A stretch of 64,000 nt of DNA. It comes from Thermocrinis ruber. Its GTDB lineage: Bacteria > Aquificota > Aquificia > Aquificales > Aquificaceae. Below are positions 34,010-46,642 of the stretch, piece after piece. How positions within the stretch are numbered: position 1 is the first letter of the stretch; each line of letters begins with the position of its first letter. The position numbers were made by a program, and so were the translations under genes. The stretch is from assembly GCF_000512735.1 (NCBI RefSeq), contig NZ_CP007028.1:434001-498000 (forward strand). The letters are read 5' to 3'. The notes beneath the pieces are model-generated. The model did not search any database. It saw only the letters and a program-made list of their open reading frames with translations, and was not told the origin of the DNA.

Positions 34010-34915
34010 GTGAAGAATTTAGATATAGACCTGAAACTCCTTGAGCTTTTTTGCTGTGTTTATGAAAAGGGAAGCATCTCAGAAAGTTCAGACTGCTTGC
34101 ATCTTTCCCAATCTACCATAAGCTTTCATTTGCATCAGCTTGAAAACCAAATAGGACTTAAGCTTTTTTACAAAAAGGGCAGAAAGCTCATTCCAACCAG
34201 CACAGCCCAAATGCTCTACCCATACGCTAAAAAGGTCCTTGAGCTAAAGCTTGCGGTAATAGAGGAGATAAAGATGCTCTCTGGTTCCTACAGGGGACTT
34301 GTAAAGGTGGGGGCGAGCTCAGTTCCCGGAAGCTACATACTTCCCGACTTTATATCAGACTTTCTATCTAAGAACAGACAGATAATGATAGAGTTTTATG
34401 TTAGCGATTCTAAGGAGGTCGTGGATAAGGTAGCAAAAGGCGAGTTGGATTTGGGTGTAGTTGGTGCAAAGATACCCTTTAGTAGGCTCAAGTATGAAAA
34501 TCTATGGTGGGACCAGATCCACATTGTAGGTGGCAATGGAGTGGACCCAAAGCTGAGCTTGGAGGACCTAAAGACCTTGCCTTGGGTTCTGAGAGAAGAG
34601 GGTTCCGGCACAAGAAGGCTTTTAGAAGAAGCCCTTTACAAGCTTGGAATAAATCTAAAGGAGCTGAAGGTTCTCATGATCACAGATAAGAACGAGGTCA
34701 TATTGGATGTGCTAAAAAGGGTCAAAGCTCTATCTTTTATGTCCTCCTTAGCACTCAGAAAATACAAAGGCATAAGGCAGGTAAAGGTGAAGGGCTTTGA
34801 ACCCATAGAGAGGGAGTTTTACTTGGTCTTTGATGAAGAGAGACCCATGCCACCGGCGGTTAGATATTTTGTGGAAGAGTTAAAAAGGCGTAGCTTTGTG
34901 GAAGTGAGCCCATGA
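34010..34915 (+). CDS. LysR-family transcriptional regulator
   Basis: A 301-residue LTTR. An N-terminal winged helix-turn-helix spans residues 8-65 (LELFCCVYEKGSISESS, then LSQSTISFHLHQLE), followed by a linker helix and a periplasmic-binding-protein-like effector domain. It starts with GTG 34010; AAGGAG overlaps the start codon and cannot act as a normal ribosome-binding site. Its stop overlaps the selB ATG, so regulator and Sec machinery are translationally coupled. The effector is unknown; formate, molybdate or selenium status would be sensible guesses. The fdhA upstream palindrome is a possible target. Confidence 0.88.
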   Translation: MKNLDIDLKLLELFCCVYEKGSISESSDCLHLSQSTISFHLHQLENQIGLKLFYKKGRKLIPTSTAQMLYPYAKKVLELKLAVIEEIKMLSGSYRGLVKVGASSVPGSYILPDFISDFLSKNRQIMIEFYVSDSKEVVDKVAKGELDLGVVGAKIPFSRLKYENLWWDQIHIVGGNGVDPKLSLEDLKTLPWVLREEGSGTRRLLEEALYKLGINLKELKVLMITDKNEVILDVLKRVKALSFMSSLALRKYKGIRQVKVKGFEPIEREFYLVFDEERPMPPAVRYFVEELKRRSFVEVSP

Positions 34916-36633
34916 GATTTGTGCCCGTGGGAATTGCGGGACATGTAGACCACGGTAAAACCACCTTGGTGAAAGCCCTGACGGGCATAGATACAGATCG
35001 GTTGCCCGAGGAAAAAAGGAGGGGTATGAGCATTGACCTTGGCTTTGCATACTTGGACTATCCCGAGAAAGGGCTAAGGGTAGAGCTCATAGACATACCC
35101 GGTCATGAAAGGTTCATAAAGAACGCCATAGCGGGTTTGGCTTGCGTAAGGGGTGTGCTTTTGGTGGTGGACCCGGTGGAGGGCGTAATGCCGGAGACTA
35201 TAAAGCATACCCAACTCATCAAAGCCTTTGGCATATACCACTGCGTGGCGGTTCTAACAAAGGCAGACAGGGTGGATGAGGAAACCTTAGAACTTGCAAG
35301 AATGGAGCTTTCGGAGTTTTTGAAGGATATGGGGCTAAGGGCTTATGGGCTGTGTGCGGTCTCCGCTTTGAGCGGTATTGGATTGGAGGAGTTGAAGAAG
35401 ACAATAGGCGAGTATGCGGAGGAGATTTCAGGCGCCGGCGTTGAATTTTTACGCATAGTTTTGGATTCAGCCTTTAATGTAAAGGGCTACGGAACTGTTC
35501 TGAGGGGTAGTTGTTTATCTGGTAGGGTTGAAGAGGGAGACAGTTTGAGCCTTGAACCCTTGGGCTTTGAAGTTAGAGTAAAGAAAATTCAAAATCACGG
35601 TGTATTTGTGAAGGAGGGAAAAGAAGGGGAAAGGTTGGCTCTGTTGGTGGCTGGTGTTGAACCCTCTCAGGTGGAAAGGGGCTTTGTGCTTGTTAAAAAG
35701 GGACAGATTGCAAAGAGCAGGCATCTCTTGGTGGAGGTGGAGGGAGAAATGCCAAAGGGTGAAGGGAGCCTTTTCTTTTATATGAGGGAAATAAAGTTCA
35801 AACGAAAAAAGGTCTCCGAAAAGGTCTATCTTCTTACCTTGGAAGAGCCAGTGTGTGCTATCTTAGGGGATAGGGGACCCATCCTTGATGCGTCCGGACA
35901 GCTATGTGCCAGCTATAGGGTGATACACCCAAAGCCCACAGTAAAAAGGAAAAGATTTATAAAAGAACGTTTGGATTTCCTCAAGGAAGACCCAATCTCT
36001 TACTTTCTTTCTGAGGCTGGTTTTAGGGGGCTCCCTTTGGAAGTGCTCGGCTCTCTATTTGGTGTGCATATAAATCCGAGCAAGCTTGGGGCGGTAAGGA
36101 TAGGGGATAAACTCTTTGCACCCACTGTGGTGGAAGGGCTAAGGGAAAAGCTAAGCGCCATCCTTAGCACCAAGGGGGGCTTTTTACCCTTGGAGGAGTT
36201 AAAAAGTTCTCTCCGAGTGAGCGAGGAACTTTTGAAGTATATCCTGTCTCAACTGAAGGGCTACAGACTGGTAGAGGGCTATATTTTAGACGAGAGAAGG
36301 GCAAACTTGGAAGAGTTGGAGGGCTTTCGGGAACTTTTGGAGTTTATGAAGGGTTCTATAAAGGAGGAGGCTGAATTGGAGAGGTTCAAGGAGGTCCTTC
36401 CCTTGGCAGTAAGGAAGGGAAAGGTTCATAGCTTGGGAGAAAGGCTTTACATACTTGATGAGGACCTAAAGGAAGTGTTGTCTAAGCTCAGGTCTTTGGG
36501 AGACAGCTTTGAGGTTCAACAGGCAAAGGCACTGCTTGGATTGAGTAGAAAGTATTTGATCCCGCTTCTGGAATACATAGACTACCTTGGATACACCAGG
36601 CGAGAGGGAAATTTTAGGAGGTTCATAAAGTGA
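34912..36633 (+). CDS. selB: Selenocysteine-specific elongation factor SelB
   Basis: A 573-residue GTPase that carries Sec-tRNA to UGA codons marked by a SECIS hairpin. The G1 loop GHVDHGKT is at residues 10-17, the G3 motif DIPGHERF near 62-69 and the G4 TKAD near 114. EF-Tu-like domains II and III follow. The C-terminal about 230 residues are the winged-helix domains that bind SECIS RNA. E. coli SelB is about 40 residues longer. The selA GTG overlaps its stop by 4 bases. Confidence 0.95.
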   Translation: MRFVPVGIAGHVDHGKTTLVKALTGIDTDRLPEEKRRGMSIDLGFAYLDYPEKGLRVELIDIPGHERFIKNAIAGLACVRGVLLVVDPVEGVMPETIKHTQLIKAFGIYHCVAVLTKADRVDEETLELARMELSEFLKDMGLRAYGLCAVSALSGIGLEELKKTIGEYAEEISGAGVEFLRIVLDSAFNVKGYGTVLRGSCLSGRVEEGDSLSLEPLGFEVRVKKIQNHGVFVKEGKEGERLALLVAGVEPSQVERGFVLVKKGQIAKSRHLLVEVEGEMPKGEGSLFFYMREIKFKRKKVSEKVYLLTLEEPVCAILGDRGPILDASGQLCASYRVIHPKPTVKRKRFIKERLDFLKEDPISYFLSEAGFRGLPLEVLGSLFGVHINPSKLGAVRIGDKLFAPTVVEGLREKLSAILSTKGGFLPLEELKSSLRVSEELLKYILSQLKGYRLVEGYILDERRANLEELEGFRELLEFMKGSIKEEAELERFKEVLPLAVRKGKVHSLGERLYILDEDLKEVLSKLRSLGDSFEVQQAKALLGLSRKYLIPLLEYIDYLGYTRREGNFRRFIK

Positions 36634-37976
36634 GAGAGCTTTTGAGAAAGATCCCACAGGTGTCCAAGCTCATAGAAGAGTATGGAAAGGTTCATGGAGA
36701 TAGCCCACTGCTTAGGATGGCAATAAAAAATGCGGTGGATAAGGTAAGAAGGGAAATTTTGGAGGGCAAAAGAAGCCATCTGGAGGACCTTGGGTTGGTT
36801 ATAGAGGAGGAGCTAAAAAGGCTAAAAAGAACAAACCTGAGGAGGGTAATAAACGCCACTGGAGTGGTCATAAACACAAACTTAGGAAGGTCTGTCCTTT
36901 CGGAGGAGACCGCTAACTTTATAAAAGAAATCGCCACCCATTACAGCAATTTGGAGTTTGACTTGGAGGAGGGGAAAAGGGGTTCAAGGGTGCGTTTGGT
37001 GGAGGAGCTATTGGTAGATTTGGTTGGCTGTGAGTCCGCCCATGTGGTAAATAACAACGCTGGAGCGGTCTTTTTAGTATTGAACACCCATGCAAAGGAC
37101 AGGGAGGTTATAGTCTCCCGGGGCGAGCTTGTAGAAATTGGGGGAAGCTTTCGTATCCCGGACATTATGAGGGCTTCTGGGGCAATCTTGGTGGAAGTGG
37201 GCACCACCAACAAAACAAGGCTACAGGATTACAAAAACGCCATCAGCCCAAACACTGCCCTGATAATGAAGGTGCATAAGAGCAACTTTTACATGGAGGG
37301 TTTTATAGAAGAAGTGAAGGCGGAAGAGCTTTTGAGTTTGGGTCTGCCTGTCTACTATGATGCGGGTAGTGGTCTTCTTATGGACCTAAGAAAGCTCGGT
37401 ATAAATTACGAAGAGCCCTCCTTTGAGGAGCTTATAAAGAAAGGTCTGCATTTGGTCTCCGGTAGCGGAGATAAGCTCTTGGGCGGTCCCCAAGCGGGGC
37501 TGATCTTAGGAAAGAGAGAGTTTGTGGAACCCTTGAAGAAAAATCCGCTTAGCAGGGTTCTCAGGGTTGACAAGCTTACCCTCTCAGCCCTTGAGCATAC
37601 CCTAAGACTTTACAGGGAAGAGAGGTATGAGGAGATACCTACCCTGCGTATGCTTTCCACAGCGGAGGAGGAGCTAAAGAAAAAAGCAAAAAAGGTGGCA
37701 AAACACTTAAAAAATGTAAAGTGGTTAAGTGTATCTATTGTTAGAGAACTCTCAGTGTGCGGAGGGGGAAGCCTACCGGAGCTAAAGCTACCTACCTATT
37801 GCGTGGCAATAAAGCATCAAAGGATTAGCCCTCAAGAGTTATACAAGTGGCTGTTAAAACAGGAGCCTCCAGTGGTTGGCAGGTTGAGGGATGACTTGCT
37901 ACTGCTTGACATGAGAACGGTCCTTGAGGAGGATATAAAGCCTCTGATTTCGGTGCTTAAGGGTTTAGAGTTCTAA
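36630..37976 (+). CDS. selA: L-seryl-tRNA(Sec) selenium transferase SelA
   Basis: A 448-residue PLP enzyme converting Ser-tRNA-Sec to Sec-tRNA-Sec with selenophosphate. The N-terminal domain, including RRVINATGVVINTNLGRS, recognises tRNA-Sec and forms the decamer. The PLP lysine is Lys282 in SGSGDKLLGGPQAG. The start is GTG 36630, overlapping selB. Downstream are 99 non-coding bases (37977-38075) with AT-rich strings and a GGAGG before the next gene, but no clear terminator. Confidence 0.96.
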   Translation: MRELLRKIPQVSKLIEEYGKVHGDSPLLRMAIKNAVDKVRREILEGKRSHLEDLGLVIEEELKRLKRTNLRRVINATGVVINTNLGRSVLSEETANFIKEIATHYSNLEFDLEEGKRGSRVRLVEELLVDLVGCESAHVVNNNAGAVFLVLNTHAKDREVIVSRGELVEIGGSFRIPDIMRASGAILVEVGTTNKTRLQDYKNAISPNTALIMKVHKSNFYMEGFIEEVKAEELLSLGLPVYYDAGSGLLMDLRKLGINYEEPSFEELIKKGLHLVSGSGDKLLGGPQAGLILGKREFVEPLKKNPLSRVLRVDKLTLSALEHTLRLYREERYEEIPTLRMLSTAEEELKKKAKKVAKHLKNVKWLSVSIVRELSVCGGGSLPELKLPTYCVAIKHQRISPQELYKWLLKQEPPVVGRLRDDLLLLDMRTVLEEDIKPLISVLKGLEF

Positions 37977-38075: not shown

Positions 38076-39131
38076 ATGGACAGGAGGAATTTTATTAAGC
38101 TTTCTGTAAGCAGTCTTGCCCTTTCAGTTCTTAACTTTCCTCAGCTTTCCTTTTCTTCAACCAAAAAAGAAAGGGCGAAGCTGATATATTCTGCCAAGCT
38201 TCCCTACGAGGGTAAAGTTAGGCTTTGGCTACCAGTACCTATGAATACAGATTATCAAAGGTTGTTAAGCTTGGAAATAAAAGGCACTCACTCGTTGAGT
38301 AGGCTTACTAAAGATGCGGTATATTCGGCACCCATACTATACTTGGAGTTTCCCGATAAGAATGAAAAGCAGGTGGAAGTTATATTTGATGTGGAATTTT
38401 GGTCAAGGAATGTAGATCTGAAGAAATTACCAAAGAACAATACCCACATACCTTCTGAGGTTGCCCTTTATCTCAAACCTACCAAACATATACCCACCGA
38501 TGGAATAGTTAAAGAGTATGCGAATAAAATCACCAAGGGTCTTAGCACAGATTACAGCAAAGTTAGGGCTATATACGATTGGGTAGTGGATAATACTTTT
38601 AGGGACCCCAAAGTTTTGGGGTGTGGCACTGGGGATGTAAAGGCTATGCTGGAAAGTGGATACTTTGGTGGAAAATGCACGGATATAAATTCCCTATTTG
38701 TAGCCCTTTGCCGAGCGTCCGGAATTCCCGCAAGGGAAATCTTTGGCATTAGGGTTAAAGCATCATCCCTATCCAAGGGCATATCTGATGTAGCGGGAGA
38801 TGCAACAAAAGCACAACACTGTAGAGCTGAGTTCTGGTTAGGACAGTGGGTACCTGCAGACCCGGCAGATGTAAGGAAGTTTATACTTGAGGAAAAGATA
38901 GATAGTATAAAAGATGAGAGGGTAAAGTTCATTAGGGAATTTATGTTCGGTGGATGGGATTTACATTGGGTTGCCTTTAACTACGCAAGGGATTTTGAAC
39001 CCGAGCCTCCTTTGAGCAGTAGGGAGACTATAAACGAGTTAATGTATCCCATAGCGGAGGTTTCTGGGAAATTGGTAGATAAATATAAGCTGACCTTTGA
39101 ACAATCCAAGTATAGAGTAGAGGTTGTATAA
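38076..39131 (+). CDS. Tat-exported transglutaminase-like protein
   Basis: A 351-residue protein. The N-terminus MDRRNFIKLSVSSLALSV fits a twin-arginine signal, so a folded protein is probably exported. The C-terminal half is a transglutaminase-like cysteine-protease-fold domain, with Cys201 in GGKCTDINSL, His248 in AQHCRAEFW and Asp262 in PADPADVRK as the likely triad. Such domains act as peptidases, amidases or cross-linkers on unknown targets. It lies between selA and selD on the same strand, 11 bp before selD, and so is probably co-expressed with the selenocysteine genes. I know of no role for such an enzyme in selenium use. Confidence 0.8.
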   Translation: MDRRNFIKLSVSSLALSVLNFPQLSFSSTKKERAKLIYSAKLPYEGKVRLWLPVPMNTDYQRLLSLEIKGTHSLSRLTKDAVYSAPILYLEFPDKNEKQVEVIFDVEFWSRNVDLKKLPKNNTHIPSEVALYLKPTKHIPTDGIVKEYANKITKGLSTDYSKVRAIYDWVVDNTFRDPKVLGCGTGDVKAMLESGYFGGKCTDINSLFVALCRASGIPAREIFGIRVKASSLSKGISDVAGDATKAQHCRAEFWLGQWVPADPADVRKFILEEKIDSIKDERVKFIREFMFGGWDLHWVAFNYARDFEPEPPLSSRETINELMYPIAEVSGKLVDKYKLTFEQSKYRVEVV

Positions 39132-39142
39132 AAATTGAAAAG

Positions 39143-40159
39143 ATGGAACTTTTGAAGCTTGTCAGGGCATCCGGTTGAGCGGCTAAGGTAGGTCCGGGGG
39201 ACCTAGAAAAGCTCCTGGCGGGGCTAAACCCATACACGGATGAGCATACCCTTTTGGGTATGGGAGATGACGCGGGGGCATATGAATACAATTGGTCAGT
39301 GTTTTTGCATACGGTGGATTTTATAACTCCCGTAGTCAATGACCCATACCTTTGGGGTGCTATATCCGCCGCCAATTCCCTTAGCGACATATACGCCACC
39401 GGAGGAGTTCCTCTAACAGCCCTTGCGGTGCTTGGCTTTAACCATTGCCAGCTTTCTTCGGAGGTCTTAAAAGAGGTGCTCAGGGGTGCCACGGACAAAC
39501 TAAGGGAGGCAAAGACTGTCCTTTTGGGCGGTCATACCGTAGACGACCAAGAGCCCAAGTTTGGGTTGGCGGTCTTTGGAGTTTGCCCATCTGGAAAGCT
39601 CTTAACACAGAGTGGAGCCAAACCCGGCGACCTTCTTTACATCACAAAACCCATAGGCGTGGGCATACTAACCAAGGCTATAAAGGAAGGGAAGATTGAA
39701 GAGAAAGATATCCCGGATGCAATTCAAAACATGCTACTTTTGAACGATAGAGCGGGCGAGCTTGCCCTAAGGGTAAATGCCAACGCCTGCACGGACATAA
39801 CCGGCTTTGGGCTTTTGGGTCATGCCTACAATGTAGCCAAAAAATCGGGAGTAAAGTTAATAATAGACTTCTCAAGGGTGCCCTTTTACGAGCAGTCTGC
39901 CCACTTTGCGAAGATGGGCATATATCCCAAGGGTGCGGTGGATAACTTTAACTTTGTGAAGCCCTCCCTTAGTTTCTCCGGCTTGGAAAGATGGGAGCTG
40001 ATCCTTCTATCGGACCCTACCACCTCCGGCGGGCTTCTTTTTACGGTTCCCAAAGAAAGAGAAAGAGATGTGCTTGCTTTAGCTAAAGAATTAAAGGTTA
40101 GCCTGCGGCATGTAGGTTGGGTTGAGGAGGGCGAAGGTTTGGAAGTTATTAAAACATAG
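39143..40159 (+). CDS. selD: Selenide, water dikinase SelD, a selenoprotein (Sec12, UGA read-through)
   Basis: Makes selenophosphate from selenide and ATP. The frame must be read from ATG 39143 through an in-frame TGA at 39176-39178. This gives 338 residues and the usual SelD N-terminus with Sec at residue 12 ([13 protein letters not shown]), where other SelD proteins have Cys or Sec, followed by the catalytic Lys15. Translation from a later ATG (39254) would lack the whole catalytic loop. Other motifs are [23 protein letters not shown] and [20 protein letters not shown]-like hairpin follows the TGA. No strong ribosome-binding site is visible. The stop codon directly touches the end of selC on the other strand. 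Confidence 0.95.
39177..39214 (+). promoter_or_regulatory. SECIS element of selD
   Basis: Ten bases after the UGA, TAGGTCC (39189-39195) pairs perfectly with GGACCTA (39199-39205) around a GGG loop. A lower stem GAGC (39177-39180) with GCTC (39211-39214) encloses it and includes bases of the UGA. Size and spacing match bacterial SECIS hairpins read by SelB. Confidence 0.85.
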
Positions 40160-40255
40160 CGGGAGAGCAAGGGAATCGAACCCTCCAGGGATTGCCAGAG
40201 CAACCCCTCACGGGATTTGAAGTCCCGGGGCGGCACCAGCCTGCCACGCTCTCCC
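40160..40255 (-). tRNA. selC: tRNA-Sec (anticodon UCA)
   Basis: A 96-nt tRNA read from the minus strand. The 8-bp acceptor stem is GGGAGAGC/GCTCTCCC with discriminator G at 40160. The D-stem is GGCA/TGCC, and the anticodon stem CGGGA/TCCCG holds the loop CTTCAAA with UCA at 40218-40220. A long variable arm (GGGGTTGC/GCAATCCC, one G-U pair) and a T-arm with loop TTCGATT complete it. These are the hallmarks of bacterial tRNA-Sec. The 3' CCA is not encoded. Its first base is the last base of the upstream gene's TAG stop, and its discriminator base is adjacent to the selD stop codon. Confidence 0.97.
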
Positions 40256-40776
40256 TATTTCCTTGGCAAACACTCTATTTGTTCTCTTATTATAAACTGC
40301 CTTATGGTATCCACCACTTCCTCAGCCCTTTTGAGCCTTTTGAGGCTTTCCGTATCTTCAGATTCAACCTTGACGAGCCATGCGTTGTAAGGGTCGCTGA
40401 TCAGGGGGCTTGGGTCCTTTTCAAGCTTGGAATTTTTATCCACTATTTTCCCACCCAAGGGAGAGGGAAAGGTGGATACTCTCTTGCCCGCCTCCACTAC
40501 CGCTAAGTTTCCATCGTATTCCACCACTGTACCCACCGGCTTGATCTTTACCGAATAAAGGGGATACACAAGGGCTGAAAGGATGGGTGTAAAGCCCACC
40601 GAATAAATGTTCTTTCCCTCCTTTTTTATCCACTGAAAGATCATCCTGTCTTCGTTTATTCTGTAGAGCCTATCCCTTTTTAGCTTACAACCGAACACAT
40701 CGATATCCTTTTCCACGTTAGCCCTCGCCAGAAAGGAAAAACTCAAGAACTTTAAAAGAAACCGCCTGTCTATCAT
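40255..40776 (-). CDS. GcvH-like lipoyl-domain protein with an export-signal-like N-terminus
   Basis: A 173-residue protein whose residues about 25-165 resemble the glycine-cleavage H protein. The strand IYSVGFTPILSAL, the hairpin AVVEAGKRVST with candidate lipoylated Lys98, and SPLGGKIVDKNSKLEKDP then DPYNAWLVKVE all align with GcvH. The first about 20 residues (DRRFLLKFLSFSFLARA) are not part of GcvH and look like a short twin-arginine signal with an ARA cleavage site. No gcvP or gcvT is nearby. It is the last protein gene of the formate dehydrogenase operon, with its start overlapping fdhE by 4 bases and its stop overlapping selC by 1. Function unknown; a redox, sulfur or C1 carrier is possible. 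GcvH-like proteins act as lipoate-binding sulfur carriers elsewhere in sulfur oxidisers. Confidence 0.75.
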   Translation of the reverse strand: MIDRRFLLKFLSFSFLARANVEKDIDVFGCKLKRDRLYRINEDRMIFQWIKKEGKNIYSVGFTPILSALVYPLYSVKIKPVGTVVEYDGNLAVVEAGKRVSTFPSPLGGKIVDKNSKLEKDPSPLISDPYNAWLVKVESEDTESLKRLKRAEEVVDTIRQFIIREQIECLPRK

Positions 40777-41543
40777 AAACCCAAGAGGTTCTTTTCATAC
40801 CTTTCAAAGCCCTGCTGTCTTGCCCAGAGGTCTAAACTTAATGTGGCAAGGTCGTCAATATGGGGAACCGCCAATCCATCAACCCTTAGGTCTATTACCT
40901 TTAGGTATGTGTTGCACTTTTTGCAAACATGCAGTTGAACATACCTGTTCCCTTCCTCGTGGATGTATTCAAAGTGATCATCCTCCACATTTCCACATTT
41001 TGGGCACTTGGTCCGGTAGTATAGCCAACCGGTATTGCACAGCACACAACTCAGATACCTCCCCCCTTCCACATCCTCCGTATCCATAATGTAAGAAACG
41101 GAGGGACGAAAGCCACATACGGGGCACTTTTCCTTTAGCCAATTTTTGAGGTCTGCGTCCGTGCTTTCAGCCATTATGGAGAAAAAAGGGTTCAAAAAGG
41201 ACAAAAATATGAACCTCTCCTCCTCCGGTGCCCACCTCTCCTTGAGAAACTCTGCTATCAGCTTTTCTATCTCTTCTTTACCCAAAGCCATCAAACTTTG
41301 CGCGGTTTCCCTAAGGGTTTCAGAGCCGTAGCTTATGCAGAGTTCCAATAGGGAATAAAATTCTTTTAAGCCTTTTCTCCAGTTGCTTTCCCCTTTGTTT
41401 TCAAGCTTTTCGTAAAAGTCTAACTGCCACCGGAGGACCTTTTCCATAAAGCTAAGAATTTCCTCCGCCTCCGGGTGCTTAGCCTTTAGGTGCTGTAGTC
41501 TGCTTATGCTGTATTCTCTTTCTTTTAACCTCACAATGCTCAT
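40773..41543 (-). CDS. fdhE: Formate dehydrogenase accessory protein FdhE
   Basis: A 256-residue cytosolic protein needed for activity of Tat-exported formate dehydrogenases. The C-terminal part has four CxxC-type motifs: CPVCG, CVLC, CPKCG and CKKC, as in rubredoxin-like FdhE. The N-terminal half is helical. It overlaps sodC and the GcvH-like gene by 4 bases each, so translation is likely coupled. Confidence 0.93.
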   Translation of the reverse strand: MSIVRLKEREYSISRLQHLKAKHPEAEEILSFMEKVLRWQLDFYEKLENKGESNWRKGLKEFYSLLELCISYGSETLRETAQSLMALGKEEIEKLIAEFLKERWAPEEERFIFLSFLNPFFSIMAESTDADLKNWLKEKCPVCGFRPSVSYIMDTEDVEGGRYLSCVLCNTGWLYYRTKCPKCGNVEDDHFEYIHEEGNRYVQLHVCKKCNTYLKVIDLRVDGLAVPHIDDLATLSLDLWARQQGFERYEKNLLGL

Positions 41544-42058
41544 TGTTTTATTACTCCGCAGGCGATCCTTGGTCCCGCATGTCCCGCTGGGTCTGTTTTG
41601 TGATCATCTGGATGCTGGTGGATCATGATGGAAGTTCCTCCTTCCTTAAAGAGGCTGTTTGGCTTTCCACGCTCAAGGGTCACAAAGGTGTTGAGAACAT
41701 GCACCCTCAGGTTGCCGTTGGCATCCGTAAACACGTTCGGCATGTCTCCTGCGTGTGGTCCCTCAGGGTTCAAGAGCCCGTGTTTTTTGTTGAAGGGATT
41801 AAAGTGTCCTTTGGCAGACATAAAGTCCGGCGGATCGCATTTTCCAAGTTCGTGTATGTGAAGGGCAAGCTCTGCGTTGGGGGGAAGTCCCTTAACATCC
41901 AACTTTATTAGTACTCCCGAGTTGGTTTGTATCAGTTCAGCTTTACCAACCTTTTCACCTTTTTGATTTATGAGCTCTGCAGACGCTTTCAACTCTTGGC
42001 TAAGTGTAAAAGTTGGAAGGACCGCCAGGGCGGCGGTCAAAAGCTTTAAAGCCCTCAT
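41540..42058 (-). CDS. sodC: Superoxide dismutase [Cu-Zn]
   Basis: A 172-residue exported Cu/Zn SOD. A signal peptide covers about residues 1-20. Metal ligands are in LHIHELGKCDPPDF (His-x-His), the GHFNPFNKKHG segment, GPHAGDMPNV and the late MIHQHPDDHKTDPAGHAG region. A disulfide is expected between the Cys of ELGKC and the Cys in PRIACGV. It should detoxify superoxide in the periplasm. It lies inside the formate dehydrogenase operon between fdhC and fdhE with ATGA overlaps, which suggests protection of the exported, oxygen-sensitive selenoenzyme. Confidence 0.95.
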   Translation of the reverse strand: MRALKLLTAALAVLPTFTLSQELKASAELINQKGEKVGKAELIQTNSGVLIKLDVKGLPPNAELALHIHELGKCDPPDFMSAKGHFNPFNKKHGLLNPEGPHAGDMPNVFTDANGNLRVHVLNTFVTLERGKPNSLFKEGGTSIMIHQHPDDHKTDPAGHAGPRIACGVIKQ

Positions 42059-42696
42059 GGCTCTCTCCTCCCAATAATTTGCTTAAACCACTTGGGATGA
42101 TGTGAGGCAGCCCAAAGGGCGGATACCTTCCCAGTTATCATACTGCTCAGAGAACCGGGCACCCCAATGGTTCCCATATAAACATGCACTATAAAGCCCG
42201 CACCCACCACTATGAAGGCAATTTCGTGCAACAATATAGCCCACCTGACCAGGGTTATTGAAAAGCTATTCGGAAACCACATAACCAATCCAGAAATCAG
42301 GAACACCGCACTTCCTATGAACACGATCCACCCAAAGAGTTTTTGCCCTGCGTTATATTTCCCCGCCTCTGGCAGTTTTTCCTCCTCTCCCTTTATGTAG
42401 TGTTTTACGCCCTTCAGCCACTTTATGTCGTCCGCATCCAAAATAAAATCCTTTGCCCATTTGAGGAACATCAAGAACACTCCCACCGAATAGACGATGC
42501 CAGCAATGGGATGTAGCCATGCGGAAAACTCCTTACCCCCCAGCACAGTCAAAAGCCAGCTAAACTTGGGAGAGTATATACCAAGACCCGAGAAAAACAG
42601 ATACAGGAAAGATATTGCCACAAGCCAATGTATAAATCTTTCAAAGGCTGAGAACCTTTGAACTTCCACATCCTCAAGGTTTTTTGTGTGTTCCAT
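42055..42696 (-). CDS. fdhC: Formate dehydrogenase cytochrome b556 (gamma) subunit
   Basis: A 213-residue, four-helix cytochrome b of the FdnI/FdoI family. Candidate heme ligands are the histidines in RFIHWLVAISF, SAWLHPIAGIVY and LLHEIAFIVVGAGFIVHVYMG. It anchors FdhAB at the outer face of the membrane and passes formate electrons to quinone. It begins 3 bp after fdhB, and sodC starts on its stop codon. Confidence 0.92.
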   Translation of the reverse strand: MEHTKNLEDVEVQRFSAFERFIHWLVAISFLYLFFSGLGIYSPKFSWLLTVLGGKEFSAWLHPIAGIVYSVGVFLMFLKWAKDFILDADDIKWLKGVKHYIKGEEEKLPEAGKYNAGQKLFGWIVFIGSAVFLISGLVMWFPNSFSITLVRWAILLHEIAFIVVGAGFIVHVYMGTIGVPGSLSSMITGKVSALWAASHHPKWFKQIIGRREP

Positions 42697-42699
42697 GGC

Positions 42700-43587
42700 T
42701 TACTCCTCCTTCTTTTCTTTCTTACCCACCTTTATGGGTCCAAAGAGTATTAGCTGTAGGAAGGCACCCAACAGAGAAGCCCACAGGATCACGCTTCCCA
42801 CCAGCTTTACGGGACCCTTCCACAGGCTAACAAGGGGAGATATACTCGCCTCTTTGGGAAGCCCATACATCTCCGGCTTATCTCCATGGGGTAGAACATA
42901 GATGTATCCAGTTCCTCCCACACCGGGTGGGTCGTATATAGCCGCATTTTCAAAGCCTCTCTGCTTTAGCTGTGCCACGATCTTTTCAGCCCTATGTAGC
43001 ATCTCCTCCCTTGTGCCAAAGTGCAGACAGTTGGTAGGACAGGTTTTCACACAGGCAGGCTCAAGCCCCGCAGAGACCCTATCCACACAGAAGTTGCACT
43101 TCCACGGCTTGTTGTTGGCGTCGTACCTTGGAATATCAAAGGGACAGCCTGAAAGGCAGAATTTACAGCCTATGCACTTGGAATGGTCAAAATCCACTAT
43201 GCCGTTTTGGTATTGAATAACCGCACCCGGCGAAGGGCAAGCCTTTAGACAACCAGGGTCCCCACAGTGCATGCATTGGTATTTGGCTATAAACCAGGTT
43301 AGCCCCTTCTCTGTTTCCGCCTCCCTGAACTTCATCATCATAAATACGCTGGGCATTAGGTCCGGATAGGATTGATATCCCACTGGTGCCTGTTCCTCCG
43401 GTAAAAGTGGGGGCTTAAGGTCGTGCCACTGGGCACATGCCGCCTCACAACCCTTACATCCTATGCAGGAGGAAACATCTACCAATATGGCTAACCTGTC
43501 CGCGGACTTTACCTCCGCGGGTGCCTTGGAGGCAGACACCCGCTTTAGCCCTGCTCCAACAGTTCCTCCAACGGTAACTGTGCTCAT
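42700..43587 (-). CDS. fdhB: Formate dehydrogenase iron-sulfur (beta) subunit
   Basis: A 295-residue protein with four [4Fe-4S] motifs of the FdnH/FdoH type: CIGCKGCEAACAQW, CMHCGDPGCLKACP, CIGCKFCLSGCP and CNFCVDRV with CVKTCPTNC. A single C-terminal helix (SVILWASLLGAFLQLILFG) fixes it in the membrane next to the cytochrome. It has no signal of its own and is probably exported with FdhA through Tat. It lies 13 bp after fdhA. Confidence 0.94.
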   Translation of the reverse strand: MSTVTVGGTVGAGLKRVSASKAPAEVKSADRLAILVDVSSCIGCKGCEAACAQWHDLKPPLLPEEQAPVGYQSYPDLMPSVFMMMKFREAETEKGLTWFIAKYQCMHCGDPGCLKACPSPGAVIQYQNGIVDFDHSKCIGCKFCLSGCPFDIPRYDANNKPWKCNFCVDRVSAGLEPACVKTCPTNCLHFGTREEMLHRAEKIVAQLKQRGFENAAIYDPPGVGGTGYIYVLPHGDKPEMYGLPKEASISPLVSLWKGPVKLVGSVILWASLLGAFLQLILFGPIKVGKKEKKEE

Positions 43588-43600
43588 TGCATTACCTCCT

Positions 43601-46600
43601 TTATGCTTTTACCTTTTCTATGTTGCATAGGAACCCCTTGAACTCGGGCGTTTGAGAGTTGGGGTCCCACACATAGGGCGTTGCCAAGTTGGCAAGGGCA
43701 CCCTTCACAAAGCCCTCAAAGCCCCAGTGAATGGGTATGCCAACGGTATAGACCTTTTTACCGTTTACGATCAGAGGCTTGATCCTCTTGGTAGGGAGGG
43801 CGTAGGCTTCCGCAGAACCCCTTGCGGTCACGATCCTGACCTTATCTCCCTCTTTTATGCCAAGCTCCTTAGCCAACTCCTCTGGTATTTCTACAAAGAT
43901 CTTCTGGAATAGAACAGAAGCCCCATATACATGCTTTGTCCAGAAGTGGAAATGCTCAGTAAGCCTGTAGGTGGTGGCACAGTAGGGGAACTTGTCGGGG
44001 GTTCCCAAAAGGTCCAGCTCAGACTTATAGATCTTAACTACTGGGTTGGTGGAGGTCTTAGGATGTAACACATTTTGGACGGGCGATTCGTAGGGTTCGT
44101 AGTGTTCGGGGAAGGGTCCGTCCGCAAGGAAGAAGTTATAGAGCCTGCCTCTACCCTCCGGTAGCATTATGAAGGGACCATACTCTGGTGGCAGGTCGGG
44201 TTTTATGTCTGGCACATCGTGCCCAACCCACTTGCCTTCCTTTTCGTCCCACCAGAGCAGTTTCTTCTTAGGAGACCAAGGCTTACCCGTTGGGTCTGCA
44301 GAGGCCCTGTTGTATAGGATCCTCCTGTTGGCGGGCCAAGAGAAGCCAAAGTTGGGATATATGCCCAGCCCAGAGGGGTCGGATAGGTCTGTGTTCTTTG
44401 CCCTGTTTCCAGACTGAGGATACACTCCGCAGTATAGCCACATACCGCAGGCGGTGGTTCCGTCATCCCTCAACATGGTAAAGCTGGGCAATCTTTCGCC
44501 CTTCTTCACCACCACATTACCCTTATCGTCCGTCAAGTCCGCAAGAGCCACGCCGTTTATCTCCAGGGCAAGAACCTCATCCGCAGTGGGCTCGTAGGGG
44601 TTCTTATAGGGCCAGCGTGCCTTCAGTATTGGATCGGGGAATTTGCCACCCTCCTTTTGGTAGAGTTCTTTTAGTTTCATGTAAAGCCTTCCTGCGATCC
44701 AGTATTCAGACTTGGCATCCCCGGGTGGGTCCACCGCCTTGTATTGCCAAGATAGACGCCTTCCGCTGTTAGTCTTTGTTCCCTCCTTCTCCGCAAAGAG
44801 GGCGGAGGGCAAGAGCAGAACTTCCGTCTTTACCGCCTCTGGGTTTTTGGCTTGCTTCCAGAAGGACGCCATCTCTGTTTCAAAGAGTTCCACCACCACC
44901 ATCCACTTGAGCTTGGACAGAGCTTCCACGGTCTTATTCACATTGGGCGTGTTAGCCAGAATATTCACACCCAAAGAGACCAAACCCTCCATCTTACCTC
45001 TATACATCCTGTCAATGGCTTCATCCCAAGCAATGACCTTATCCTGCTTTGGCAGGAAGTGATAGGCAAAGTCGTTCTCGGGAGTGGCCGCATCTCCGTA
45101 GTATGCTTTTAGCAGGGAGACAATGAACTTTGAGTAGTTGGACCAGTAGTTCATGGAGCCTTCGTCCCAAGGCTTGGGTGTGTTCGCTTCAATGTAATCC
45201 TTTAGGGTTTGCTGTTCGGGTTTAGGTGGTCTGAGGTAGCCATGCAGGAACCTACCCTCACCCGCCAAGTCCGTCACACCCTGCACATTAGAATGTCCTC
45301 TGAGTGCGTTTATTCCTCCTCCGGGCACACCAATATTGCCCAAAAGCAGTTGAAGGATCGCCATAGAACCTATCACCTGCGTGCCCCAGCTGTGATGGGT
45401 CCAACCTAAGGCGTAAAGGTGTGTCATGGATTTGTCTGGCGCACCAGTCTCCGCTATGATCTTTGCCACCTCCAGGAACTTTTCCTTTGGAACACCCGTT
45501 ATCTTTTCCACAACCTCCGGCGTGTATCTTGAATAGAACTGCTTGAGGAGTTGGAAGACGCACCTTGGATGTTCCATGGTCATATCCTTCTTGACCATGC
45601 CCTTTTCGTCCCTTTCATAATCCCAAAGCTTGGTGTCATACCTTCTCTTCTCTGGGTCGTAGCCGGAGAAAAGTCCAGTTTCGGGGTCAAAGTTGTAGGT
45701 GTCCTTCACTATGTAGGTGGCGTTGGTAAAGTGTCTTACATACTCTTCGTTGTATTTTTTGTTCTGGAGAACATAGTTTATCAGACCACCCATAAAGGCT
45801 ATGTCGGAACCGGGTCTTATTTGAACGAATATGTCCGAGACCGCTGCAGTTCTTGTGTAGCGCACATCAACGCATATAATCTTTGCACCCCTTTCCTGTC
45901 TTGCCTTTATTGCCCATTTGAAACCGCATGGATGGTTTTCAGCCGGGTTCCCTCCCATAACAAACACAACATCTGCGTTCTTTATGTCCTCCCAAGAGTT
46001 GGTCATTGCACCCCTGCCAAACCTTGTGGCCAAACTGGCCACCGTGGGTGCGTGTCATATTCGTGCCTGCGTCTCTAAAGCTGTTAAGCCAAGTATTCTG
46101 CCCAGCTTGATCCATAGGTAAGCTGCCTCGTTTTCCATTATGGAGCCCGTCAGCCAAAAGATGCTCTCGCACCTATTTACCACCCTACCCTCTTGGTCTG
46201 TTTCAATAAAGGTCCTGTCCCTGGTATCCTTTATAAGCCTTGCCATTTTCTCTATGGCTTCGTCCCAACTGATCTCCTTCCACTCTTTGGAACCAGGCGC
46301 CCTGTATAGGGGTTTTGTGAGCCTCCTCGGAGAGTTTATAAAGTCCTTAAGAGTAGCACCTTTGGGGCAGAGGGTCCCTCTGTTGACGGGCGTGTCTGGG
46401 TCCCCTTCCACATGGATCACTCTCGGCTTTACGTTCGCTGCGCCATCCGTAAGGCTGTATATGAGCACACCGCAGGACACAGAACAGTAAGGGCATATGC
46501 TCTTAACTGCCTTGGCTTTAGAAATTTTCAACTCCTGAACCCTTGCTAAGGCGGGCTTTATATCAAAGCCCAAAACACCAGCCACGCTGGCACCAACAGA

Positions 46601-46642
46601 CAATCCAGAAGCCTTAAGGAAAGTCCTTCTGGTAAGCTCCAT
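43601..46642 (-). CDS. fdhA: Formate dehydrogenase catalytic (alpha) subunit, selenoprotein (Sec196)
   Basis: A 1,013-residue Mo/W-bisMGD enzyme oxidising formate to CO2 at the outer face of the membrane. The true start is ATG 46642, with GGAGGTG six bases upstream. It opens the Tat signal MELTRRTFLKASG, and an upstream TTG at 46708 only adds leader. Cys50, Cys53 and Cys57 (CPYCSVSC) start a [4Fe-4S] site. An in-frame TGA at 46055-46057 encodes Sec196 in the active-site motif ARI-U-HAPTV, continuing to FGRGAMTN. E. coli FdnG has Sec at the same position and nearly the same length. Read without Sec, the gene would appear as two fragments. Confidence 0.96.
46008..46051 (-). promoter_or_regulatory. 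SECIS element of fdhA
   Basis: Twelve bases after the UGA on the minus strand, GTGGCCA (46042-46036) pairs with TGGCCAC (46032-46026) around a GTT loop. This is the same 7-bp stem and 3-nt loop plan as in selD. A lower stem GCACCC (46051-46046) with GGGTGC (46013-46008) closes an asymmetric internal loop. Confidence 0.85.

Follow-up and report, generated by a model that had tools for sequence, protein, structure and literature searches.

How is selenocysteine tRNA (tRNA-Sec) supplied from a gene, selC, that has no spacer at either end? The question is raised by the stretch of DNA analysed here (the window), 64,000 nt corresponding to positions 434001-498000 of the complete 1,521,037-bp genome of Thermocrinis ruber. 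In it, the last protein gene of a formate dehydrogenase (fdh) operon, an open reading frame (ORF) for a GcvH-like protein, runs directly into selC on the minus strand, and selD approaches selC from the other side on the plus strand. The original prediction, made from the sequence, held that tRNA-Sec must therefore be cut out of the fdh mRNA and that its supply follows fdh transcription in a feed-forward manner. Our analysis points to an additional source, as the conserved end of the GcvH-like ORF contains a predicted promoter for selC, which we regard as likely but not established. The elements at the junction are:

40160..40255, minus strand: selC, tRNA-Sec with UCA anticodon (RF01852, ARAGORN, sequence)
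40255..40257, minus strand: TAG stop of the GcvH-like gene, the G of which is G1 of the tRNA (sequence, ORF)
40157..40159, plus strand: TAG stop of selD, adjoining the tRNA discriminator (sequence, ORF)
40255..40776, minus strand: GcvH-like protein, 173 amino acids (PF01597, 2.8e-29; below the NCBIfam gcvH cut-offs)
40289..40294, minus strand: TATAAT, predicted -10 box of an internal selC promoter (exact match, recurrence)

The selC gene and its contacts

The tRNA extends from G1 at 40255 to the discriminator G at 40160. RF01852 matched at 40161-40255 (-) over the full model (1-91) with 76.4 bits against a cut-off of 47, and ARAGORN called a tRNA-SeC with anticodon tca at 40159-40255. The acceptor stem, read by eye and also present in the Rfam alignment, has 8 bp (GGGAGAGC / GCUCUCCC). 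The full-length match above the family cut-off, the UCA anticodon and the 8-bp acceptor stem together place the gene in the tRNA-Sec family. CTA directly follows the discriminator on the minus strand, so CCA is not encoded; it is genomically encoded in 16 of the 37 selC genes compared. The upstream contact is a 1-base overlap, written here as TA/G, in which the first base of selC (G1, 40255) is the last base of the TAG stop at 40257-40255. On the other side, the selD stop at 40157-40159 on the opposite strand abuts the discriminator at 40160. Both contacts had been described correctly in the original prediction.

A predicted promoter inside the GcvH-like gene

The TATAAT at 40294-40289 sits in Phe-Ile-Ile codons of the GcvH-like ORF, 33 nt from G1, and is the sole sense-strand TATAAT in the fdh operon of the window. 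To compare related loci, we searched 112 genomes of the order for RF01852. A clear tRNA-Sec, defined by a judgement cut of at least 51.2 bits, was found in 37 genomes including that of the window, all of them Aquificaceae; the best match under the cut scored 49.8 bits and lies at a contig edge (G018). The relatives are partly drafts, and absences there may reflect missing contigs. In 24 of the 37 selC loci a GcvH-like gene is located directly upstream on the same strand, and in 16 of these 24 the final 60 nt of the GcvH-like ORF contain an exact TATAAT. Its distance from G1 is 33-39 nt in 15 loci; in G087, one of two relic loci (the other being G081) that hold only a 3' piece of the GcvH-like gene, it is 15 nt. 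A promoter inside the upstream gene, the very finding that the original prediction had named as speaking against it, is thereby indicated, as a prediction.

The box is confined to this position. When the 1,500 nt upstream of selC were divided into 30-nt bins, TATAAT occurred in the 30-60 bin in 15 of the 24 loci and in the 0-30 bin in one; beyond 60 nt it occurred in one of 24 in a single further bin and in none of the other bins. Elsewhere in the coding DNA of the same operons there were 16 TATAAT per 128,706 positions, corresponding to 0.007 per 60 nt. As a null model, synonymous codons were resampled from each genome's own operon. This gave a mean of 4.4 boxes (standard deviation (SD) 1.8) with a maximum of 11 in 1000 draws, against the 16 observed in 24 loci. 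Without the relics the count was 14 of 22 against a mean of 4.1 (SD 1.7, maximum 11 in 5000 draws); the relic boxes are included in the 16 of 24 but given no weight of their own, as incomplete decay could explain why they remain. When the loci were clustered at 75% DNA identity, 13.5 of 16 clusters had the box against 3.5 under the null, and at 70% identity 6.2 of 8 against 1.6.

Among the loci the box occupies two different codon positions, which suggests that its place is kept rather than one particular run of codons. X-Ile-(Ile/Met) triplets elsewhere in these operons spell TATAAT in 12 of 102 cases. A single fdh-linked ortholog without selC behind it was found, in G079, where selC is located elsewhere; this gene retains Thr-Ile-Ile as ACA ATT ATC, without the box (n = 1), and the selC of this genome has a TATAAT 10 nt upstream. 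TATAAT is present 10-12 nt upstream in three of the 13 selC copies outside the GcvH-like context. In the genome of the window, an exact TATAAT stands within 80 nt upstream of 24 of the 43 other tRNAs; the distance is 9-17 nt for 23 of these 24, and TGTG often precedes the box. As the gene after selC is convergent in the window, the box has no obvious other client.

Several observations weigh against this assignment. The selC box is 33 nt from the tRNA, as opposed to 9-17 nt for 23 of the 24 other tRNAs with an exact box, and it departs from the tRNA-promoter pattern of this genome (TATAAT at 9-17 nt with a TGTG-like extension). Neither a TGTG-like extension (extended -10) nor a recognisable -35 was seen at the selC box. 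A generic promoter scan, which demands a -35, an element not clearly visible at the tRNA boxes of this genome, gave no match near selC and six matches in the region against a shuffle mean of 8.9. The exact box is missing in eight of the 24 GcvH-like/selC loci, and 10 of the 13 selC copies outside this context lack it within 60 nt. A relaxed box with at most one mismatch, A2 and T6 being kept, was not enriched (21 of 22 against 16.9 under the codon null, maximum 21 in 2000 draws). Finally, the resampling assumes independent loci or clusters, an assumption that is partly violated by relatedness.

A TATAGT located 9 nt from selC in G065, G026 and G070 was left uncounted. A separate set of TATAAT boxes was seen a few nt before the ATG downstream of selC in G029, G016, G035 and G003 (L063, L068, L073 and L054), which suggests a leaderless or near-leaderless start of the next gene in these genomes.

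Conservation of the two contacts

The exact 1-base TA/G overlap was found in 20 of the 24 GcvH-like/selC loci, in four genera (g1, g6, g7 and g11), and in 18 of 22 when the relics are left out. In the remaining four loci the GcvH-like stop lies at or close to selC without overlapping it: a TGA with a 1-nt gap in G003, a TAG with a 2-nt gap in G009, and an abutting TAA in G029 and TGA in G069. Chance can be ruled out for the upstream contact, because the same gene with mostly the same base overlap recurs across four genera. Convergent selD touching selC was seen only in the genome of the window among the 37 loci, several draft stretches being short. The two contacts thus differ in age, the upstream one being conserved and the selD contact local to this lineage. 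With one genome only, and with other tRNAs showing similar convergent contacts, the selD contact may be due to chance.

Outside the GcvH-like context, selC has other neighbours. In G071, G074 and G014 (L061, L064 and L066) selC shares 12-15 nt with the selB ORF, by which the selB-selC overlap described by Mukai 2021 (PMC8124441) extends to Aquificaceae, and in G021 the selB ORF ends 4 nt before selC. An unrelated 407-aa ORF supplies TA/G in G068, a 178-aa ORF overlaps selC by 12 nt in G019, and another gene abuts it in G083. TA precedes G1 in four of the 13 loci outside the GcvH-like context (G007, G021, G068 and G082), and only in G068 is it part of an in-frame stop of the listed upstream ORF. 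This fits a plain pre-tRNA preference and weakens a regulatory reading of TA/G. In L062, L075, L078 and L060 (g6 and g4), a gene on the selC strand that by eye resembles a cysteine desulfurase starts about 14 nt downstream of selC, which places selC within an operon there.

To see how unusual such contacts are within the genome, we considered 44 tRNAs (43 RF00005 matches and selC), with neighbours assigned by an ORF heuristic and gene names by eye. A same-strand upstream ORF at a gap of 0 or less was present for four of them, selC included: a PNPase-like gene overlaps the tRNA at genome positions 256849-256920 by 10 nt (L092), an HU/IHF-like gene abuts the tRNA at 396698 (L122), and a doubtful 100-aa ORF abuts that at 76164. 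Likewise, a convergent ORF stops no more than 1 nt from the discriminator in four of the 44, again with selC (the others at 507370, 594082 and 1370594), and convergent ORFs of 68, 116 and 291 aa reach into the 3' part of the tRNAs at 779484, 1306946 and 1458239, respectively. If the two sides were independent, about 0.4 double contacts would be expected (0.6 with the three overlapping convergent ORFs), and one was observed. As tRNA-ORF contacts are this dense, the double contact exceeds chance only weakly within this genome, and it is the conservation on the fdh side that is remarkable. An A immediately precedes the tRNA 5' end in 37 of the 44 tRNAs, possibly a processing preference, and the A of TA/G therefore also follows the local habit of tRNA leaders.

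Possible read-through from fdh and selD

The minus-strand genes from fdhC through the GcvH-like gene overlap their neighbours by 4 nt each, and no terminator-like match was found on the sense strand from fdhB to selC. A weak match lies further upstream, inside fdhA (43920-43901). The terminator scan of the region gave eight matches against a shuffle mean of 11.4, that is, fewer than the shuffles, so neither these matches nor their absence weigh much. The linkage of tRNA-Sec to fdh transcription that had been claimed is supported by the 4-nt overlaps and the conserved gene order, while the 'must' in that claim is weakened by the predicted internal TATAAT. On the plus strand, a terminator-like match at 40406-40428 lies past selC in the direction of selD transcription; it may fit selD read-through antisense to selC, or perhaps be there by chance. 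Such antisense read-through, also part of the original prediction, concerns this one lineage only and is plausible by analogy, as antisense transcripts have been reported over some Aquifex aeolicus tRNAs (Lechner 2014, PMC4227106).

Processing of the 5' end

The expectation that RNase P here is of the protein-only HARP type was supported: the genome of the window contains HARP (PF08745), and neither an RNase P RNA (RF00010, stricter filters) nor RnpA (PF00825) was found in it. In the 37 Aquificaceae genomes sampled (G000-G036, the window's included), HARP was present in 36 and RF00010, with the same stricter filters, in none. HARP has already been published as the RNase P of Aquificaceae (PMC10941002). 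In vitro, a HARP of Planctomycetes cleaved a 7-bp variant of pre-tRNA-His far better than the native 8-bp form and left a 9-bp variant uncut, and the HARP of Thermocrinis ruber, the species of the window, showed no 9-bp cleavage and a clear 7-bp preference (both PMC9051087). The 8-bp stem of tRNA-Sec conflicts with this preference, and consequently a cut before or after G1 is conceivable. A cut before G1 would remove the stop codon of the upstream message, and a cut after G1 would keep it. A transfer-messenger RNA (tmRNA) is present in the genome and available for rescue. No report of the HARP cleavage site on pre-tRNA-Sec was found in the open-licence literature searched. The junction therefore bears on how a protein-only RNase P handles tRNA-Sec and on the fate of an mRNA whose stop lies in a tRNA.

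Explanations of the junction

We consider it reasonably probable that selC, at the end of a tightly packed fdh operon, also has a sigma-A-type promoter of its own, with HARP trimming the products. The -10 box at 40294-40289 would be written into the Phe-Ile-Ile codons near the end of the GcvH-like ORF, transcription would start near 40282, and the resulting pre-tRNA would have a leader of about 27 nt, with no more of the ORF than its final codons. Read-through from fdh would provide a second supply of tRNA-Sec, and HARP would trim both precursors at or beside the UA/G junction. The TA/G overlap itself would be a by-product of compaction, stable because the tRNA dictates G1, termination of the reading frame requires TA, and an A commonly stands before tRNAs in this genome; the selD contact would be a local rearrangement. 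If this is true, the junction usefully illustrates how synonymous codon choice can preserve a -10 box, and with it a promoter concealed within an operon, and it warns against inferring 'no promoter' from 'no spacer'. By comparison, it is unlikely that selC lacks a promoter and is freed by HARP only from the fdh polycistron, as the feed-forward proposal has it. That proposal agrees with the fdh-linked GcvH-like gene found directly ahead of selC in 24 of 37 loci, with the 4-nt overlaps and with the sense strand lacking terminator-like matches between fdhB and selC. Moreover, selC follows or overlaps selB without an exact box in G014, G021, G071 and G074, so operon supply alone may suffice there. 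The proposal does not account for the enrichment of the exact TATAAT just upstream of selC past the codon null. In addition, the SelD of the window is by its in-frame TGA probably also a Sec (selenocysteine) protein, and of the 13 genomes in which selC has another location, 10 retain selA but not this fdhA; selC thus persists in many genomes without this fdh, an argument against fdh transcription being its only supply.

We would likewise give only a modest chance to compaction alone, with a contact of no regulatory meaning and a TATAAT that arises from Ile-Ile codons and AT-rich codon use. Other tRNAs of the genome also abut or overlap ORFs and the relaxed box is not enriched, but the exact box exceeds a null drawn from the codon use of the same genomes, and G079 retains Thr-Ile-Ile without retaining the box. 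Quite improbable, in our judgement, is a cut-or-translate switch in which a HARP cut at UA/G removes the GcvH-like stop and calls for tmRNA rescue, each transcript yielding either protein or tRNA. Such a switch would suit the exact TA/G, shared by 20 of 24 loci (by 18 of 22 once the relics are dropped) in four genera; tmRNA is present, and a nonstop model has been published for selB-selC (PMC8124441). Against it, G003, G009, G029 and G069 have a gap of 0-2 nt instead of the overlap, HARPs process pre-tRNA-His with an 8-bp acceptor less well than with a 7-bp one in vitro (PMC9051087), and the overlap is expected to persist without selection for coupling, since G1 and the stop are separately constrained and most tRNAs of this genome (37 of 44) have A at -1. 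A still bolder possibility, which we rate as very doubtful, is that the shared UA/G is a conserved bacterial form of tRNA punctuation, the HARP bond choice coupling tRNA-Sec supply to the fate of the fdh message. HARP, measuring a set distance from the tRNA elbow and preferring a 7-bp stem, would face two bonds on an 8-bp stem. One cut would give an 8-bp tRNA-Sec and destroy the GcvH-like stop, and the other would spare the stop and shorten the tRNA; transcripts from the internal promoter would meanwhile supply tRNA-Sec without ever containing the complete GcvH-like ORF.

Relation to known systems

In animal mitochondria, an upstream reading frame may end in only part of a stop codon (T or TA) where the tRNA is cut out, and polyadenylation completes the stop. 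The junction resembles this punctuation in that the 5' end of selC falls within the upstream stop codon. A closer relative is the arrangement described by Mukai 2021 (PMC8124441), where selC is nested in or overlaps selB, a nonstop-mRNA hypothesis is put forward and an antisense selB-selC overlap is also given. Here, too, a bacterial tRNA-Sec gene overlaps the 3' end of a same-strand ORF, by 1 base, and a cut before G1 would leave a nonstop mRNA. Unlike there, the overlapped ORF is a GcvH-like gene (PF01597) of the fdh operon and not selB, and an internal promoter is indicated. The fdoGHI-selABCD clusters cited in PMC8124441 likewise place selC and further sel genes next to an operon for a Sec formate dehydrogenase; the difference is that here the fdh operon ends in a fused selC, which in this genome is convergent with selD. 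In having HARP and no RNase P RNA found, the genome is like those of the HARP-processed Aquificaceae tRNAs (PMC10941002, PMC9051087). No description of the fdh-GcvH-like-selC junction was found in the open-licence literature searched, and as far as that literature goes it is the 1-base overlap of selC with the GcvH-like gene of the fdh operon that is new here, an ORF-overlapping selC being known for selB.

Gene neighbourhood

On the minus strand the order is fdhA, fdhB, fdhC, a sodC-like gene, fdhE, the GcvH-like gene and selC. On the plus strand it is a LysR regulator, selB, selA, a transglutaminase-like gene and selD. The fdh operon and the sel gene set that meet at selC each encode a selenoprotein, judged by in-frame TGA codons. 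The genes are:

43601..46642, minus strand: fdhA, formate dehydrogenase-N alpha subunit, in-frame TGA (Sec) at 46057-46055 (TIGR01553, translation)
42700..43587, minus strand: fdhB, formate dehydrogenase beta subunit (TIGR01582, 445 bits, over cut-off)
42055..42696, minus strand: fdhC, formate dehydrogenase gamma subunit (TIGR01583, 233 bits, over cut-off)
41540..42058, minus strand: Cu-Zn superoxide dismutase-like gene within the fdh operon (below cut-offs)
40773..41543, minus strand: fdhE (PF24859/PF24860; TIGR01562 below cut-off)
34010..34915, plus strand: selenium-metabolism LysR regulator (NF040786, 254.8 bits, cut-off 250)
34912..36633, plus strand: selB (PF00009, PF09107)
36630..37976, plus strand: selA (PF03841, 3.2e-151)
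38076..39131, plus strand: transglutaminase-like protein, between selA and selD (PF01841, 6e-23)
39143..40159, plus strand: selD, in-frame TGA (Sec) at 39176-39178 (translation; TIGR00476)

The start codon of fdhA was picked by eye. The portions after the TGA scored over the cut-off in both selenoprotein genes, with 1216 bits for fdhA (TIGR01553) and 299 bits for selD (TIGR00476). The GcvH-like protein fails the curated gcvH cut-offs (TIGR00527, 56.7 against 115.85; NF002270, 71.6 against 117). In the alignment, it shows a twin-arginine-like N-terminus and a conserved lysine site, mostly E[AS]GK[RK], and there is a conserved C-terminal Cys among those sequences that extend that far; these features suggest an exported lipoyl-type subunit. 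The transglutaminase-like protein at 38076-39131 also has a twin-arginine-like start, and a homologue adjoins selC in G067.

Clients of tRNA-Sec and possible decay of the trait

The in-frame TGA of selD at 39176-39178 stands in an ASG-U-AAK context, and SelD itself is probably a selenoprotein, so that it would need the very tRNA that it helps to charge. FdhA and SelD of A. aeolicus were listed as predicted selenoproteins in 2005 (PMC1242214). In the 13 genomes in which selC is not behind a GcvH-like gene, selA is full or near-full length in 11, the gene being split over two contigs in G079; G007 has a fragment, and selA was not found in G063. The part of this type of fdhA after the TGA was detected at E <= 1e-50 only in G079, and 10 of the 13 genomes have selA without it at this threshold. 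A proteomic study of A. aeolicus detected the alpha and beta subunits of formate dehydrogenase and did not detect gcvH1 (aq_1052) (PMC10052474). By its locus tag next to fdoGHI, aq_1052 is likely the ortholog of the GcvH-like gene.

No selC match by DNA was obtained in five of the seven genomes of the window's genus, some of which are incomplete. In the G081 and G087 drafts selA and fdhA were not found. These two genomes and G007 (L065, L087 and L057) have kept selC with selA not found or fragmentary and fdhA missing at the threshold, and look like cases of decay of the Sec trait. A metagenome-assembled genome record labelled Acidobacteria (RFFP01000019.1) carries an Aquificaceae selC and is probably mislabelled.

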